From contig DATCKS010000134.1 in the NCBI GenBank assembly GCA_036562265.1, positions 1 through 5,094 of the forward strand: a DNA stretch of 5,094 nt. The letters are read 5' to 3'. Made by a program: the position numbers and the translations under genes. Below the pieces are notes generated by a model. The model worked only from the letters and a program-made list of their open reading frames with translations, searched no databases and was not told the DNA's origin. This DNA comes from DASVDK01 sp036562265 [NCBI: Thermodesulfobacteriota bacterium] (GTDB lineage: Bacteria; DASVDK01). Shown piece by piece: positions 1 through 5,094 of the stretch. The number at the start of each line of letters is the position of its first letter. Positions within the stretch are counted from its first letter, which is position 1.

Positions 1-320
1 CCGAGCAGGACCGTCAGCCCGAGGTACCGGCGCATGCCGGCCTGGTCGCCTCGCTCGAGCGCCGCGATCGCCAGGGCGACCGTGAGGCTGCTCGTGAGGA
101 GGATGACGGTGTTGGTGGTGCCGATCGCCAGGTTCAGGTGCTCCGCGGCCTCGCCCCACGCCGGCCGGCCGAGACGAAAGGCGACGAAGCTCGCGATGAG
201 CCCGCCGAAGATCATGATCTCCGAGGCGAGGAACCACCAGATGCCGACCTTGCCGGGCGTGAGCCCGTGGAACGACTCCTGCCTGACGGCGGCGACGGTC
301 TTGACGGCAGCGACGGTCAC
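1..320 (-). CDS. ctaE: Cytochrome c oxidase subunit III, N-terminal part (runs off window)
   Basis: Subunit III of an aa3-type heme-copper oxidase, an integral membrane subunit that carries no redox metal but stabilises proton uptake and the active site in subunit I. Only the first 106 codons are in the window; the gene continues past base 1. The GTG start at 320 is chosen because GGAGG (331-327) lies 6 nt upstream; the next GTG (333) is in another frame. Visible family marks are a first helix at about residues 27-50 with the motif GIWWFLASEIMIFGG, in which Glu34 matches the conserved carboxylate (bovine Glu90), and a second helix at about 65-88 with NTVILLTSSLT. A third helix begins near residue 99. 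The gene lies 13 bp after subunit I, so the two are surely co-transcribed. The family identity is clear; the full length cannot be judged. Confidence 0.95.
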   Translation of the reverse strand, partial: MTVAAVKTVAAVRQESFHGLTPGKVGIWWFLASEIMIFGGLIASFVAFRLGRPAWGEAAEHLNLAIGTTNTVILLTSSLTVALAIAALERGDQAGMRRYLGLTVLL

Positions 321-333: not shown

Positions 334-2043
334 TCACGAGCGCGCGGCCGCGACCTGGCCCTGCGGGAGCCAGTCGCGCGCCTCGCCGGGGACGCTGTAC
401 TCGTACGGGCCGCGGTGCACCACGGGCAGCGCCGGGCCCCAGTTGAGGTGGGGCGGCGGCGAGGGGATCGTCCACTCGAGCGTCGCCGCCTCCCACGGGT
501 TCGCCGGCGCCGGCTTGCCGACGAGGAGGCTCCGCACGACGTTCACCACGAACGGGATCTGGGCCAGGAGCAGGAGCACCGAGGAGACGGTGGCCAGCTC
601 GTTGATCCACTGGTGCGGCTCGAGCATCGGGAAGAACCGCGGGTCGGAGGTCCGGCGCGGCATGCCGGCGAGCCCGATGTTGTGCAGCAGGAAGAAGGTC
701 AGGTTGAAGAAGACGACCGTGAGCCAGAAGTGGATCCGGCCGAGGCGCTCCGAGAGCATCCGGCCGAACATCTTCGGGAACCAGTAGTAGATGCCGGCGA
801 ACGCGCCGAACACCACGGAGCTGAAGAGCGTGTAGTGGAAGTGCGCCACGACGAAGTAGGTTCCGCGCAGGTAGATGTCGACCGGCGCCGACCCGTTGAA
901 GATCCCGGTGAGCCCGCCGAAGATGAACATCGCGATGAAGCCGAGGGCGAAGAGCATCGGCGTCTCGAAGCTGATCGACCCGCGCCAGAGCGTCGCGATC
1001 ATGGCGAAGACGATCCAGGCGACCGGGACCGAGATCAGGATCGTGGACACGCTGAAGGGCATCGCCAGGCGCGGGTCCATGCCGCTCACGAACATGTGGT
1101 GCGCCCAGACGAGCATGGACAGCGCCACCACCGCGGCGGTCGCCCAGAGGATCCACCGGTACCCGAAGACCGGCTTGCGGGCGAAGACGGGCAGGATCTC
1201 GAGCACGAGCCCCACCGGCGGCAGGAGCAGCACGTAGACCTCGGGGTGACCGAAGAACCAGAAGAGGTGCTGCCACAGGAGCGGGTCCCCGCCCCCCTCC
1301 GGCACGTAGAAGTGCGTCCCGGCCACGCGGTCGAGCAGGAGCATCACGGCGCCGGCGACGAGCGGCCCGACCGAAAGGAGGAAGATCAGCGCGGCGGCAA
1401 GCTGCTGCCAGACGGCGAGCGGCATGCGGCCGAGCGTCATCCCCGGGGCGCGCATCGTGAGGGCGGTCGTCAGGTAGTTCACCCCGCCCATGAGGAACGC
1501 GGCGAACTCGAGCGCCTGGGCGATCAGCCAGAGGTTCAGCCCCCAGTTCGACCCGGTGAAGGCCGGCTTGCCCGATAGCGGCGGGTAGCCGGTCCACCCC
1601 GCCGAGGCGGCGCCGCCCGGGACGAAGAACGAGACGAGCAGCACGATCGACGCGAGCACGAGCACCCAGATCGAGGCCATGTTGAGCCGCGGGAAGGCCA
1701 TGTCCCGGGCGCCGATCATGAGCGGGATCAGGAAGTTGCCGAACGCACCGAGGAGGATCGGCATCGCGACGAAGAAGACCATGATCGTGCCGTGCATCGT
1801 CACGATCACGTTGTACCGGTCGGGGGTGATCACCCCGAGGCCCGGCACCTCGCTGCCCGGCCAGGCGAGCTGCCAGCGCATGGCGCCGGCGAGGAGCCCG
1901 CCGACGACCGCCCAGAAGGCGCCGACGGCGAGGTACTGCTTCGCGATGGTCTTGTGGTCGGTCGAGAAGACGTAGGTCCGCCAGAAGCCCGGCCGGTGGT
2001 CGCCGTGCTCCGCGGCCCCGCTGCTCGCGTGACGTTCGCTCAT
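334..2043 (-). CDS. ctaD: Cytochrome c oxidase subunit I (A-family heme-copper oxidase), divergent K-channel and Mg site
   Basis: Catalytic subunit of a proton-pumping oxidase reducing O2 at a heme a3-CuB centre in the cytoplasmic membrane; 569 aa, 12 expected helices. The ATG at 2043 is preferred over an in-frame ATG 13 codons upstream: it overlaps the ctaC stop (ATGA), has GGAG 8 nt upstream, and the extra N-terminus would be coding sequence of ctaC. Ligands present: His84 and His403 (low-spin heme), His401 (heme a3), His266, His315 and His316 (CuB), with Tyr270 placed for the His-Tyr cross-link in GHPEVY. The D channel is intact: Asp114, Asn103, Asn121, Asn189 and Glu268. Arg463-Arg464 (GMPRR) fit the propionate contacts. 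Odd points: a gapless alignment from the HH pair puts Val341 and Ile344 where the K channel has Thr and Lys (bovine Thr316, Lys319), and Arg393-Gly394 replace the Mg ligands His368-Asp369. Family call certain; subclass uncertain. Confidence 0.98.
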   Translation of the reverse strand: MSERHASSGAAEHGDHRPGFWRTYVFSTDHKTIAKQYLAVGAFWAVVGGLLAGAMRWQLAWPGSEVPGLGVITPDRYNVIVTMHGTIMVFFVAMPILLGAFGNFLIPLMIGARDMAFPRLNMASIWVLVLASIVLLVSFFVPGGAASAGWTGYPPLSGKPAFTGSNWGLNLWLIAQALEFAAFLMGGVNYLTTALTMRAPGMTLGRMPLAVWQQLAAALIFLLSVGPLVAGAVMLLLDRVAGTHFYVPEGGGDPLLWQHLFWFFGHPEVYVLLLPPVGLVLEILPVFARKPVFGYRWILWATAAVVALSMLVWAHHMFVSGMDPRLAMPFSVSTILISVPVAWIVFAMIATLWRGSISFETPMLFALGFIAMFIFGGLTGIFNGSAPVDIYLRGTYFVVAHFHYTLFSSVVFGAFAGIYYWFPKMFGRMLSERLGRIHFWLTVVFFNLTFFLLHNIGLAGMPRRTSDPRFFPMLEPHQWINELATVSSVLLLLAQIPFVVNVVRSLLVGKPAPANPWEAATLEWTIPSPPPHLNWGPALPVVHRGPYEYSVPGEARDWLPQGQVAAARS

Positions 2044-2747
2044 CCCTGGCTCTCCGATCGGGCCGTGGTGGCGGCCGGCCACTGCTGCCGCACCCAGGCC
2101 TCGTAGTCGTCAGGCGTGTGCACGTGGAGGCGTCCGTTCATGATCGAGTGCGCGACGCCGCAGAGCTCCGCGCAGGGAAGCTCGTACACGCCGGGCGTCG
2201 TCGCCTCGAACCAGCCGCCGGTGAGCCGTCCGGGCACGGCGTCCTGCTTGAAACGGAGGTTCGGGGCGAAGAAGCTGTGGATGACGTCCTCCGAACGGAG
2301 CAGGAGCCGCACGGTCCGGCCGACGGGGACGTGGATCTCGTTGCTGAAGCGGCGGTCGTCGGCGGTGCCGAACTCGCCGTCCGGACCCGGGTACAGGACG
2401 TCCCAGTAGAACTGCCGCCCGGTGACCTGGATCGTGAGGTCGGCCGGGGGCATCTGCCCCTTGACCTTGGCCCAGGCCGGCGCGCCCCGCCAGTCGACCC
2501 AGAGGTCGAGCGCGAGGACGACCGCGCAGGGGACCAGGATCCAGGCCATCTCCCGGAAGCGATCCCCCGTGACGTAGGCGGCGCGCCGCCCGCGGCCGCG
2601 GCGGTAGAGGACGAGGAACGCGCCGAAGACCCCCAGGCTCGCGACGAGCCAGGCGAGCGTTCCCCAGTAGATGATGGCGAAGATCGCGTCCACGTCGCCG
2701 CCGTAGGTGGACGCGTTCTTCGGGAGCCAGGCCATCCAGTCGAACAT
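2040..2747 (-). CDS. ctaC: Cytochrome c oxidase subunit II with CuA domain
   Basis: Takes electrons from cytochrome c on the outer face of the membrane and passes them through the binuclear CuA centre to subunit I. It has 235 aa. ATG 2747 is chosen because the purine-rich stretch GAGGTGAGG ends 5 nt upstream and the protein then begins MFDWMAWLPK; a farther in-frame start would add an unlikely basic leader. There is no lipobox or clear cleaved signal. Two helices are visible at about 20-47 and 67-84, followed by a cupredoxin fold. CuA ligands are complete: His157, Cys192, Glu194, Cys196, His200 and Met203. Aromatic residues Phe113-Tyr114-Trp115 fit the electron entry patch. Glu66 matches the K-channel entry glutamate (bovine subunit II Glu62). 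A loop at 120-131 (PGPDGEFGTADD) is longer than in mitochondrial subunits. No fused cytochrome c domain follows, so this is not a caa3 type. It is the first gene of the operon and overlaps ctaD by 4 bp. Confidence 0.97.
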   Translation of the reverse strand: MFDWMAWLPKNASTYGGDVDAIFAIIYWGTLAWLVASLGVFGAFLVLYRRGRGRRAAYVTGDRFREMAWILVPCAVVLALDLWVDWRGAPAWAKVKGQMPPADLTIQVTGRQFYWDVLYPGPDGEFGTADDRRFSNEIHVPVGRTVRLLLRSEDVIHSFFAPNLRFKQDAVPGRLTGGWFEATTPGVYELPCAELCGVAHSIMNGRLHVHTPDDYEAWVRQQWPAATTARSESQG

Positions 2748-2775
2748 GAACGCCTCACCTCGATACACGAGCCCG

Positions 2776-2794
2776 GACCCCCCGGGTCGCGACC
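2776..2794. repeat. GC-rich inverted repeats in the ctaC leader
   Basis: Two overlapping short inverted repeats lie 29-48 bp upstream of the ctaC start: GACCC-CCC-GGGTC (2776-2788) and the perfect 10-bp palindrome GGTCGCGACC (2785-2794). They share the GGTC segment, so in RNA they would be mutually exclusive. They could be an operator or leader structure; in DNA this GC-rich chance occurrence is also possible. Confidence 0.3.
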
Positions 2795-2818
2795 GACGAG
2801 CAACGTAGCCGCTTGAAT

Positions 2819-2830
2819 TTGTGAGCACAA
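2819..2830. promoter_or_regulatory. Possible operator, TTGTG-AG-CACAA
   Basis: Perfect 5-bp inverted repeat with a 2-bp centre, in the only AT-richer part of the divergent ctaC/regulator region and 72 bp from the ctaC start. Its A/T-ended arms stand out from the GC-rich background. It does not match the full CRP (TGTGA-N6-TCACA) or FNR (TTGAT-N4-ATCAA) consensus. On the minus strand TTGTGC (2829-2824), followed after 17 bp by TACGTT (2806-2801), could be a weak promoter for ctaC, so a protein bound here would affect ctaC transcription. The repeat is seen; its role is inferred. Confidence 0.4.
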
Positions 2831-2840
2831 TGAAGCAAAC

Positions 2841-2858
2841 GGCCCGGGTCCCTGGGCC
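2841..2858. promoter_or_regulatory. 18-bp imperfect palindrome, possible second operator
   Basis: GGCCCGGG-TC-CCTGGGCC has 8-bp arms with a single mismatch. It is centred exactly 25 bp from the centre of the TTGTG/CACAA repeat and ends 21 bp before the -10 element of the plus-strand promoter, so it covers the -35 region of the divergent regulator gene. A bound dimer here could repress that gene or act on both directions. No regulator is recognised from the sequence alone. Confidence 0.35.
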
Positions 2859-2878
2859 GAATGCGTCAAGAAGCGCGG

Positions 2879-2887
2879 TGATATACT
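2879..2887 (+). promoter_or_regulatory. Extended -10 promoter for the PAS-LuxR regulator gene
   Basis: TGATATACT matches the extended -10 form TGn-TATAAT with five of six bases in the hexamer. It is the best promoter element in the window and stands in a GC-rich setting. No good -35 box is found 16-18 bp upstream, which is usual for extended -10 promoters or activator-dependent ones. A transcript starting near 2893-2895 would have a leader of only about 27-29 nt before the GTG at 2922. Confidence 0.6.
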
Positions 2888-2921
2888 TCGGTCGCGCGCG
2901 TGACGTTCAGTGGAGGTGGCG

Positions 2922-3587
2922 GTGAGCGACGAGCTGTCCGAACTGCTCGCGAACACGGCGGACGGGGCACTGGCCGTGGACCGGGAGCAGCGAATCGTCT
3001 TCGCGAACGAGGCGGCCGAGCGGCTCCTCGGCCGCTCGGCCGGGGAGCTCGTGGGGCGCCCCTGCTACGAGGTGATGTGCGGCCGGGACGACGCGGGCCG
3101 GCTCGTCTGCCAGCCGAACTGCCCGGACATGGCCGCGGCGCGCGGCGCCGGGCTCGCGCCGACGCACGAGATCTCGGTCCGGACGAAGGCGGGGGACGAG
3201 ACCTGGCTCAGCGTCAGCAGCATCATGGTCCCGCCGAAGCGCAGGGCGCGCTTCGTGCTCGTGCACCTCTTCCGCGACATCACCGCCCAGAAGGAGATCG
3301 AGCGAGGCGTCCGGCGGCTTCTCGCGAGCCTCTCCAGGCTGCCGCTCGCACGGGGCCCCCGCCCCGCGGCACGGCCGCCCGTCGCTCCCGGCGCCGGCGA
3401 ACTGACCCGCCGCGAGCGCCAGGTCCTCGCCCTCATGGCGGCCGGGACCACGACCAAGGAGATCGCGGCCGAACTCCGCATCAGCCAGGCCACGACGCGC
3501 AACCACGTCCGGAGCATCCTCGCCAAGCTCGGCGTCCACCGGCAGGTCGAGGCGGTCGCGCTCGCGCTGCGGCACGGCCTGGTCTAG
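2922..3587 (+). CDS. One-component PAS-LuxR transcriptional regulator with a four-cysteine PAS domain
   Basis: Cytoplasmic DNA-binding regulator, 221 aa from GTG 2922. This start is chosen because GGAGG (2912-2916) lies 5 nt upstream; in-frame GTGs at 2910 and 2916 overlap that site. Residues about 5-122 form a PAS sensor (ADGALAVDREQRIVFANEAA, then FVLVHLFRDITAQ). The loop after the first PAS helices holds Cys48, Cys53, Cys63 and Cys67 (CX4CX9CX3C), a spacing that could bind a metal or Fe-S cluster or act as a thiol switch. NreB-type oxygen sensors also have four Cys in a PAS domain, with different spacing. Residues 123-157 are a Pro/Ala/Arg-rich linker. Residues 159-221 are a GerE/LuxR helix-turn-helix (LTRRERQVLALMAAG, then TTKEIAAELRISQATTRNHV). 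There is no receiver domain or kinase, so the signal is probably sensed directly. It is divergent from the oxidase operon, its likely target by position only. Confidence 0.9.
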   Translation: MSDELSELLANTADGALAVDREQRIVFANEAAERLLGRSAGELVGRPCYEVMCGRDDAGRLVCQPNCPDMAAARGAGLAPTHEISVRTKAGDETWLSVSSIMVPPKRRARFVLVHLFRDITAQKEIERGVRRLLASLSRLPLARGPRPAARPPVAPGAGELTRRERQVLALMAAGTTTKEIAAELRISQATTRNHVRSILAKLGVHRQVEAVALALRHGLV

Positions 3588-3589
3588 CC

Positions 3590-3617
3590 GGCGGCGCCGC
3601 GGCCGCACGGCGCCGCC
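3590..3617. terminator. Stem-loop between convergent genes, probable bidirectional terminator
   Basis: Perfect 10-bp arms GGCGGCGCCG and CGGCGCCGCC enclose an 8-nt loop. The structure starts 3 bp after the regulator's stop codon and ends 12 bp before the stop of the convergent small membrane protein gene. There is no T-run on either side, so it would be an unusual intrinsic terminator or a block to exonucleases. The position between two converging stops supports the call. Confidence 0.6.
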
Positions 3618-3629
3618 CGGGCGGATCGG

Positions 3630-3836
3630 TCAGGAGCGCTCCCTGTCACCCCCCTCGGCCGAGGCGATCCAGAGCATGGGGCCGACGAAGAACCCCTTGC
3701 CGACGAAGTACAGGCCGATCGCGGTGGTCAGCGCGTCGTTCCCCCGGCTGAAGCCGACCTTCGTGAGGAGCCAGATCCCCGCGAGCAGGCAGGCGGCGGA
3801 GGCCAGAGCCCCGGCGATTCTTCCCAACGTTCGCAT
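3630..3836 (-). CDS. Small two-helix membrane protein, unknown function
   Basis: A 68-aa protein starting MRTLGRIAGALASAACLLAG. The ATG at 3836 is preferred over an upstream in-frame ATG (3911) because purine-rich GGGAGGGAAGG lies just upstream and a hydrophobic segment begins at once. Two membrane segments are likely, at about 5-25 and 36-58, joined by a short polar turn (SRGND), and the tail is charged (EGGDRERS). The second segment is Gly- and aromatic-rich (GLYFVGKGFFVGPMLWIAS). I do not recognise the family. Third codon positions are almost all G or C, as in its neighbours, which supports a real gene. It is convergent with the PAS-LuxR gene and separated from the upstream gene string by a terminator-like hairpin and about 150 bp, so it is probably transcribed alone. 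No function can be assigned. Confidence 0.7.
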   Translation of the reverse strand: MRTLGRIAGALASAACLLAGIWLLTKVGFSRGNDALTTAIGLYFVGKGFFVGPMLWIASAEGGDRERS

Positions 3837-3901
3837 CGGCGACCTTCCCTCCCTGGAGTCGTCCGCGCCGCCGCGGAAAGGTCGCGCGGCGCAGAGCCCG
3901 G

Positions 3902-3930
3902 CCTCTATCACGTCGCCGCCGCGCCCGCAA
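3902..3930 (-). promoter_or_regulatory. Weak candidate promoter of the small membrane protein gene
   Basis: On the minus strand TTGCGG (3930-3925) and TAGAGG (3907-3902) are 17 bp apart, and TGA precedes the -10 as in extended -10 promoters. Each hexamer matches the sigma-70 consensus at only three of six positions. It lies 66 bp before the ATG at 3836. The spacing is right, but the match is weak. Confidence 0.25.
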
Positions 3931-3982
3931 CAGGCCGGGTCGCACGGGCGAGCCGGGGTCGCCGACCCGAACGCAAACGGGG

Positions 3983-4008
3983 ACGCCGGGCCCGGTCAGG
4001 CCCGGCGT
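3983..4008 (-). terminator. Stem-loop at the end of the three-gene string
   Basis: Perfect 10-bp arms ACGCCGGGCC and GGCCCGGCGT enclose a 6-nt loop. Read on the minus strand, the loop contains the TGA (3998-3996) that closes the out-of-frame last segment of the DUF1772-like gene. A moderately T-rich stretch (GTTTGCGTT) follows. Because the hairpin sits exactly at that stop, and not at the earlier stop at 4079, it marks the original end of the gene. Confidence 0.6.
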
Positions 4009-4381
4009 TCGCTCGACAGGGAGAAGGCCGTGAGCGCGGCGATCCACGCCAGAAGGACGATGGCGAGGCGCAGGTAGTTCAGGCCAGCGCCGCCAGGGCC
4101 GCGCCGACCCACCATCGGCGCAGCGTCCCCCGGGCTCGCCAGCCGGCCACCAGGTTCGCCGCCGCGAGGAGCGTGAGCGGCCCGGTCGTGACGAACGCCC
4201 AGAACCGGCGGCCGGTGTCCGCCTCGCGCGCCGCGGCGGCGTCCCATCGGTAACCCGTCTCCGCCGACCCGACGAGCCACTCCGGCACGATGATCCGGGC
4301 CTCGTAGAGTCCGGCGCCGAAGGTGATGCCGAGGGTGATGACGAACAGCCAGAGCAGGAGCCTGCCGCCCCATCGCGTCAC
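3996..4381 (-). pseudogene. DUF1772-like membrane protein gene, frame broken near its 3' end
   Basis: Starts at GTG 4381, which overlaps the upstream stop (GTGA) and has GGAGGAGG 7 nt upstream. The open frame gives 100 aa and stops at 4079-4081. Helix 1 is at about residues 8-31 (WLFVITLGITFGAGLYEARI), then comes RRFWAFVTTGPLTLLAAANL with helix 2 (60-80), then a short hydrophobic segment RRWWVGAALAALA and the stop. This pattern recalls four-helix DUF1772 (anthrone oxygenase-like) proteins, usually about 140-170 aa by memory. Directly after the stop, in another frame, the sequence reads LNYLRLAIVLLAWIAALTAF, a good final helix of this family with nearly all G/C third positions, ending at 3996 within a hairpin. 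The third-helix continuation is missing. I infer an internal deletion with frame loss; a one-base sequencing error or a genuine 100-aa protein are alternatives. The function of the family is poorly known. Confidence 0.6.
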
Positions 4382-4809
4382 GTCGGCTCCTCCTCCCCCT
4401 CGTTCCCGGACCGCCATCGGGCCCGCCGCCCGGCAGGCCGACGACGGGTCCCCCGAGCGTCGCCCGGGAACCGCCGCTCGACCAGGCGCCGGAGCTTCTT
4501 CACCGACAGCGCGTCCCGCCTCGCCGGGTCCTGCAGGAAGAACCAGAGCGCCTCGGCGACCTCGTTCGCGAACTGCTCCCGGCCGCCCGGGCGGCGGTAC
4601 TCGATGGCCCGGTAGAGATCCGCGGCCACCAGCTCGACCTGGTACGGCGTGATGTCGACGCGCACGTCGCCCACCGTGAAGGTCACCTCGACCTGCTGAT
4701 CCCCCCACGGCTCGGCGCGGCGATCCGCGATGGCGAACCCCGTCCCCTGGACGCGGCGCCGGATCGCCTCCTCGACCGCGAGTTGCAGCGCGTTCGGCGA
4801 GGCGGTCAC
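4378..4809 (-). CDS. Unrecognised soluble protein, 143 aa
   Basis: Starts at GTG 4809, which overlaps the previous stop (GTGA) and has GGAGG 5 nt upstream. The long open extension farther upstream is low-complexity Arg/Gly/Pro sequence and was rejected. I do not recognise the family. Visible layout: an N-terminal amphipathic helix (about 6-21, ALQLAVEEAIRRRVQ), a beta-rich part (about 38-57, VEVTFTVGDVRVDITPYQVE), helices at about 58-72 and 78-92 (the second with ALWFFLQDP), then SVKKLRRLVERRFPG, and an Arg-rich disordered stretch (117-133) ending in an acidic tail (GNEGEEEPT). There is no signal peptide or membrane segment. The acidic tail is encoded by the GAG/GAA run that also serves as ribosome binding site for the next gene. 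It is translationally coupled on both sides, so its job is probably linked to the membrane protein downstream. Confidence 0.75.
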   Translation of the reverse strand: MTASPNALQLAVEEAIRRRVQGTGFAIADRRAEPWGDQQVEVTFTVGDVRVDITPYQVELVAADLYRAIEYRRPGGREQFANEVAEALWFFLQDPARRDALSVKKLRRLVERRFPGDARGTRRRPAGRRARWRSGNEGEEEPT

Positions 4810-4973
4810 GAGCGCCTCCCGTCCGGCGCCGGCCGGGTCGCCCCCGGCGCCGGCCGCTCCGCGCCGCCGCAGAGCGGGCTCGCCGCGCGCTCCGGCAGGG
4901 CCAGGATCCTCTCCTCCGGGACGCCGGTTCTGCCGCCGACGCGAGCGGGGTCCACCCCCTCGATCCGTGCCAT
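4806..4973 (-). CDS. Small protein, 55 aa, first gene of the coupled string
   Basis: ATG 4973 has a perfect AGGAGGT ribosome binding site (4986-4980) 6 nt upstream, and the stop overlaps the next start by 4 bp. These two signals are the main reason to accept so short a gene. The protein begins MARIEGVDPARVGGRTGVPE and ends in a Pro/Ala/Arg-rich tail with a single Cys35. The first nine residues resemble the start of some carboxymuconolactone decarboxylase (AhpD-like) proteins, but nothing after them does and the CXXC motif of that family is absent. It could therefore be a remnant or an unrelated leader-like protein. There is no hydrophobic segment. Function unknown. Confidence 0.55.
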   Translation of the reverse strand: MARIEGVDPARVGGRTGVPEERILALPERAASPLCGGAERPAPGATRPAPDGRRS

Positions 4974-4979
4974 GGCACG

Positions 4980-4986
4980 ACCTCCT
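4980..4986 (-). promoter_or_regulatory. Perfect ribosome binding site AGGAGGT
   Basis: Reads AGGAGGT on the minus strand, 6 nt before ATG 4973. It is the strongest single ribosome binding site in the window and decides the start of the 55-aa gene. In the remaining bases upstream (4987-5094) I see no clear promoter and no supportable gene. Confidence 0.75.
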
Positions 4987-5094
4987 CGCATCCGCTGCGG
5001 GGGACGCCGTCACGGGCGGTGAGCCCGCCGCCGCGGCGCGGTCGGACGGCTCTCCGGGGCACGCCGCGACGCCGGGTCACAAGGCCCCCCGGTC

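Follow-up and report, generated by a model that had tools for sequence, protein, structure and literature searches.

The heme-copper oxidase encoded in the window (the whole 5,094-nucleotide stretch of DNA analysed here) is an A-family enzyme by descent and fold that departs from the definition of that family in its K-channel clause. We put at about 0.5 the probability that it is an A-family-derived oxidase fed with protons by the D channel only, in which a glutamate gained in transmembrane helix (TM) IV, E179, helps to deliver the proton normally taken up via the K channel. The wider claim, that a multi-phylum bacterial clade has an A-family oxidase working through the D channel only and that a second buried carboxylate at the position of Rhodobacter sphaeroides S197 replaces the K channel, is made more tentatively and falls a little short of an even chance. 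Nature may already have built a single-channel A-family oxidase. Residues of subunit I (COX1) are numbered as in the window protein, "column n" denotes the alignment column of its position n, and Rs marks R. sphaeroides COX1 numbering; sequences without the K-channel lysine are called K-less.

The COX1 gene lies at 334-2043 on the minus strand (start ATG 2043-2041, stop 336-334) and encodes 569 amino acids that match Pfam COX1 with 498 bits. Directly upstream, an open reading frame with a Pfam match encodes COX2 (2040-2747, minus strand; 235 aa) with the CuA ligands H157, C192, C196, H200, and M203. A further reading frame, cut by the window end (1-320, minus strand), has no Pfam match as a fragment; we assign it to the N-terminal part of COX3 because COX3 follows COX1 in an 85% identical relative (L263), in which the order is COX2-COX1-COX3-COX4_pro-DUF420-UbiA family and an Rrf2-type gene precedes COX2. 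Adjoining the oxidase genes of the window is a divergent PAS-LuxR type regulator (2910-3587, plus strand; reading frame and Pfam match) with several cysteines in its PAS part. Redox control of the oxidase operon is possible, by the PAS-LuxR regulator in the window and the Rrf2-type one in the relative.

COX1 scores 618.6 bits against the NCBIfam equivalog TIGR02891 (CtaD_CoxA), which is below the cut-off of 670.75. Its AlphaFold2 model, built with 54 aligned sequences, has a mean pLDDT of 91.3, and the best PDB matches found with Foldseek are A-family subunits I. The target TM-scores are 0.89-0.96 for R. sphaeroides and bovine entries, including 0.96 for bovine 1occ and 0.90 for the R. sphaeroides K362M mutant (3om3). 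Only weak phmmer matches, of about 60 bits or less, connect the protein to B-family oxidases.

The absence of the K-channel Thr/Lys pair had been claimed in a preliminary description of this DNA from an ungapped alignment with bovine COX1. It is borne out by the translation and by alignment with E. coli bo3, which place V341 (codon GTC, 1021-1023, minus strand) at Rs T359, I344 (ATC, 1014-1012, minus strand) at Rs K362, and L281 (codon 1201-1203, minus strand) at Rs S299; in a phmmer alignment, the Thr and Lys of Mycobacterium smegmatis COX1 likewise stand opposite V341 and I344. A misalignment hiding a nearby lysine is ruled out, as residues 334-353 contain none; H316, V341, and I344 are spaced equally to their bo3 partners, and relatives are mostly apolar at these positions. 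PMC3084760 counts both channels among the A-type properties, lists Lys354, Thr351, Ser291, and Tyr280 (Paracoccus denitrificans numbering) for the K channel, and describes the B family as being without a D channel. Only the tyrosine (Y270) of these four K-channel residues is kept in the window protein. Nor does the protein have the B-type arrangement, in which Thr, Ser, or Tyr take over the K-channel positions and the D channel is missing: it has L281, V341, and I344, and the D channel is present.

To place the protein, we aligned 235 dereplicated COX1 sequences found by similarity to it, a sample by likeness rather than a census of family A, of which 112 bear the lysine and 123 are K-less; addition of 14 plasmid sequences gave 249 (118 with Lys, 131 K-less). 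A FastTree phylogeny of the 249, calculated with columns 179, 180, 183, 217, 225, 281, 338, 341, 343, and 344 left out, unites 99 sequences including the query in one clade (support 100). A more careful tree of 103 chosen sequences, rooted with bo3, containing no B- or C-family sequences and omitting columns 179, 180, 217, 225, 281, 338, 341, 343, and 344, recovers all 34 sampled sequences of the query's type as one clade (100/100), none of them with the lysine, and nests COX1 among the family A subunits I. The tree placement and the inspection of the Lys/Thr columns in relatives, both suggested earlier, were thus carried out, and the proposal of a divergent clade inside family A is confirmed by tree and fold. 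The related statement that the enzyme fits neither the A nor the B pattern is right for the K channel; for descent it is not, as the tree, within its sampling without B- and C-family sequences, and the fold both give family A.

Nearest to the window protein are oxidases from the phylum group of a Methylomirabilis-titled metagenome-assembled genome (MAG). At E <= 1e-80, 83 of the 95 genomes of that group match, and 25 full-length loci from it (L085, L093-L116) are of the window's type, at 67-85% identity. A second phylum group, that of a Binataceae-titled MAG, has 30 of 198 genomes matching at the same threshold and contributes further members (L086/L001, L090, L122, and L123). Most titled members of the clade are MAGs of little-cultured lineages. 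Among the sequences collected, three (L022, L080, and L020) carry titles, such as Klebsiella pneumoniae, Akkermansia muciniphila, or Acidimicrobiales, that fit their place in the tree poorly; these MAG titles may be wrong.

None of the 99 members of the tree-defined clade has the K-channel lysine; chance or a sequencing error in a single codon is therefore ruled out. All 112 Lys-bearing sequences have Ser at column 281 and Ser or Thr at column 341. In the clade, column 281 is A (39), I (22), L (21), V, G, C, Q, or M in 98 members, the exception (L162) having Ser; column 341 is I (68), F (21), V (7), or otherwise L or M; and column 344 is M (44), L (27), I (18), or otherwise A, V, T, G, or S. 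The subgroup of the window (26 sequences) is apolar at columns 281, 341, 343, and 344 with few exceptions, namely Cys at 281, Tyr at 343, and Thr at 344. Glu at column 343, beside the lost lysine, occurs in 60 of the 99 members, in the Myxococcota/Gemmatimonadota part of the clade. These counts indicate a K path that is degenerate as a whole and not point-mutated.

The D channel was also said to be kept, and alignment with bo3 supports this: N124, D135, N142, N207, E286, and Y288 in that alignment correspond to N103, D114, N121, N189, E268, and Y270, and the CuB ligands H284, H333, and H334 to H266, H315, and H316. The window protein thus has the D-channel residues of an A1-type oxidase together with the E286 equivalent. 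On the minus strand, the codons are those of N103 (1735-1737), the channel entry D114 (1702-1704), N121 (1681-1683), N189 (1477-1479), E268 (1240-1242), and the active-site tyrosine Y270 (1234-1236), each conserved in 99 of 99 members of the clade. CuB, heme, and CuA ligands are also invariant, the five CuA residues being present in all 95 COX2 partners. Judged by conservation, the D path of this clade has stayed under selection, whereas the K path has been freed from it.

The COX2 glutamate at the K-channel entry position, E66 (codon 2550-2552, minus strand), had been reported to remain; it is present in the window protein, yet it is not conserved in the clade and is kept only by lineage. Glu occupies COX2 column 66 in 20 of 95 partners of the K-less clade (13 of 25 in the query's own subgroup) versus 106 of 109 partners of Lys-bearing COX1, and an acid at column 65 or 66 is found in 31 of 95 versus 107 of 109.

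We scanned for polar residues that are conserved in K-less groups and rare in Lys-bearing sequences. The scan returned column 179 and also, for example, 323, 325, and 338. E179 (codon 1507-1509, minus strand) is a carboxylate in all 99 members of the clade (97 E, 2 D) and in none of the 112 Lys-bearing sequences. A count of 99 of 99 in the 235-sequence alignment was circular, the sequences having been picked by their acid; a recount on the tree built without column 179 gave the same number in a single clade. An acid is likewise present in all 34 sampled sequences of this type on the careful tree (100/100) and in 47 of 47 sequences of groups that were defined before the column was examined, with L025 joining one group in that count. 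By the printed alignment with 1m56, E179 stands at Rs S197: S197 precedes N207 by ten residues and E179 precedes N189 by ten, with no gap. Rs S197 is one of the residues outlining the D channel in PMC10341450, and it is three and four residues before Rs S200 and S201, about one helix turn from the usual D-channel serine pair. E179 is within a helix spanning residues 167-196 of the AlphaFold2 model; from their spacing, residues 179, 182/183, 186, and 189 would lie on about one helix face.

Two further positions differ. F183 (codon 1495-1497, minus strand; Rs S201 position) is Phe in 95 of the 99 clade members, where the Lys-bearing sequences (n = 112) have S (86), T (10), A (8), Q (7), or F (1). 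A Phe here might narrow the D channel, which counts against delivery by the D channel only. S338 (codon 1030-1032, minus strand) occupies the position of Rs A356, which PMC10341450 places within the K-channel outline, and is Ser in 122 of 131 K-less sequences versus 1 of 118 with Lys. In a scan of all columns it was the substitution most common to the K-less groups, found in five of seven, the exceptions being a rhizobial group (8 sequences) and L010.

On the careful tree, the lysine state needs five changes (5-6 in bootstrap trees) and the TM IV acid two: the acid was gained once at column 179, and another K-less clade acquired one next to it, at column 180. As the trees are read, K loss has occurred several times, and an acid in mid-TM IV has been fixed in two K-less clades. 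The acid at 179 is absent from 24 of the 123 K-less sequences, one of which (L160) has an acid at 180, so K loss is possible without it. The association of acid and loss has few independent gains behind it, and compensation is unproved. An independent-pairs test of the TM IV acid against K loss had four pairs (changing the same way, 0.9; no difference, 3.1; p = 1), and fewer than six informative pairs are unable to reach 0.05; as a statistical claim, compensation of K loss by the TM IV acid is unsupported. The same test for S338 gave a median p of 0.5.

That all protons enter by the D channel was one of the options of the preliminary description, and it is the reading we favour, because the D channel is invariant and the new carboxylate sits about one turn from the D-channel serine pair. 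Under such a scheme, the D channel would admit every proton, also the ones used to make water in the reductive phase, and E179, close to E268, would be a second site that stores or relays protons. Y270, the tyrosine usually supplied via K, would receive its proton across the binuclear centre, perhaps with the aid of a water molecule bound by S338. B and C families use one K-like channel; the enzyme would be their mirror image, and its yield of pumped protons per electron may be lower. In model A-family enzymes, exchange of the lysine for Met blocks heme a3 reduction (PMC12901375), which counts against the D-only reading; one defect of the Lys mutant is eased by changes in the D channel (PMC12901375), and the first reduction still occurs in mutants without Lys (PMC8079940). 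A barrier between the end of the D channel and the tyrosine has also been argued (PMC8079940), so a natural K-less enzyme must lower this barrier or take another route.

Another route is the main rival, and we consider it unlikely: protons would reach Y270 through the TM VI/VIII region via S338, backbone groups, transient water, and, in Myxococcota and Gemmatimonadota, Glu343. The recurrence of S338 across K-less groups and the frequency of Glu343 in the clade speak for such a path, as does the Lys-free K-like path used by B-family enzymes. Against it, the window's own subgroup is apolar, with the few exceptions given above, at the four K-channel columns, the COX2 entry glutamate is not conserved, a single serine makes no path, and S338 gives no significant result in the independent-pairs test. 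Quite improbable, in our view, is a slow or non-pumping oxidase that lost the K channel because it need not turn over fast when opposed by a high proton-motive force, with E179 in a structural role. It would agree with the K-less sequences that have no acid at 179 and with the slow growth that may be supposed for the little-cultured lineages from which most titled members come; a Lys-bearing paralog, present in some genomes (e.g., L002 beside L085 in G002), could carry the main load there. However, the invariance of the D channel and E268 in 99 of 99 members suggests strong selection on proton delivery, and in two genomes of unstated completeness, G508 (4.5 Mb) and G297 (3.8 Mb), the clade COX1 (L205 and L004, respectively) is the only PF00115 match, with no match to a bd oxidase; its standing alone there also speaks for the D-only reading. 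A different main reaction, NO reduction or O2 sensing, is very improbable: the enzyme departs from a usual A-family feature and some heme-copper relatives reduce NO, but the CuB histidines, the tyrosine, the heme and CuA ligands, and the gene order in the 85% identical relative all match an oxidase.

The other six genomes tested alongside G508 and G297 have two to seven PF00115 matches; bd matches occur in G300 and G063 of these six. In the Myxococcales-titled phylum group, 21 of the 31 genomes from which a clade locus was collected (L161-L190 and G297) have one match at E <= 1e-60, a search in which the query misses distant oxidases. The Pelagicoccus genome G300 has five PF00115 matches in all in addition to its bd oxidase; both of its COX1 matches to the query (L012 and L160) are K-less and come from two different clades. 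L012, which belongs to the query's clade, stems from an isolate record.

Compared with the A1-type aa3 oxidases of R. sphaeroides, P. denitrificans, and bovine mitochondria, the query has the same fold, redox ligands, D channel, and CuA-bearing subunit II, and differs in lacking the K-channel Ser/Thr/Lys, in having E at Rs S197, F at Rs S201, and S at Rs A356, and in a COX2 glutamate that is not conserved in its clade. The B-family ba3 oxidase, like the query, has no lysine and has a serine three residues before the Thr position, which we take to be S309 of Thermus thermophilus ba3; unlike the query, it has no D channel. R. sphaeroides K362M (3om3) shares the lost lysine, the kept D channel, and a fold that matches the model. 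It is a laboratory mutant without accompanying changes, whereas the query's clade has lost the whole path and gained a carboxylate. Natural K-channel losses have been published for archaeal family A oxidases (PMC8239418); the sections consulted make no mention of a TM IV glutamate for these archaeal variants. In a literature search that lay outside most subscription journals, we found no description of the clade or of a TM IV glutamate in K-less oxidases. This suggests that, K-channel loss in archaeal family A being already published, the bacterial clade and its glutamate are apparently new. Work on why the A family uses two channels and on how the tyrosine is protonated has mostly relied on impaired Lys mutants; a natural K-less clade with an invariant D path and a gained carboxylate offers evolved, presumably active enzymes as a test case, and E179 and S338 are the residues we name for testing in the Rs K362M background.

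The 24 K-less sequences outside the clade are L010, L031/L067, a 17-sequence group, the A2-type L144/L146/L149, and L160. The 17-sequence group (L066, L070, L071, L076, L080, L092, L125, L222-L230, and L234), titled, where titles are present, mostly as Verrucomicrobia, Planctomycetes, and Omnitrophota, is apolar in place of the lysine, keeps Ser at the Thr position, and has no acid at 179; the entry Glu is kept in the four members for which COX2 was found (L070, L071, L076, and L080). Both trees make it the sister of the main clade, with weak support (91/56 on the careful tree, with 10 sequences; 83 with FastTree), and its K loss may therefore be shared with that clade.

The query had also been suggested to belong to a CoxMNOP-like group with the same gene order, and this did not hold. 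Presumably, six rhizobial sequences (L249, L250, L252, L256, L257, and L260), annotated coxB/ctaD where annotated, represent the CoxMNOP-like group. The rhizobial group with L254 forms a separate clade on the careful tree (8 sequences, 100/99), which rules out membership of the query, and its D-channel residues are altered. Like the query, the rhizobial plasmid oxidases (R. etli L249, M. japonicum L250, and others) are K-less (Gln/Met) and have a Glu in TM IV, in their case at the neighbouring column 180, and that of R. etli shares the COX2-COX1-COX3 order; unlike the query, they have N207 replaced by E, N121 by V, I, or M, and, in some, D132 by N, H, or E. Together with L262 and L160, all six sequences follow this pattern (K362 to Q/M, N207 to E, N121 to V/I/M, Glu at 180, and D132 to N, H, or E in some), so that both classical channels are altered. 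A term search of a paper on alphaproteobacterial oxidases (PMC6431628) gave no occurrence of "K-channel" or "CoxMNOP".

Some of the remaining K-less sequences are unusual in other ways. The COX1 of L010 (6001-7659) is an A-family homologue in which two of the three CuB histidines are Gln (columns 266 and 315), D114 is Glu, and neither the K-channel Lys nor Thr is present; the heme ligands are kept, a second COX1 match (L159) occurs in the same genome, and L010 is perhaps an oxidase without CuB. L254, from a Burkholderia multivorans plasmid record (ctaD, 2399-5029), has E286 replaced by Trp and K362 by Ala. Of the three A2-type COX1 sequences without the K-channel lysine (L144, L146, and L149; Ala at 268), two have Tyr and one has Phe where Rs has S299; this Tyr recalls the tyrosine of the K-like paths of the B family.
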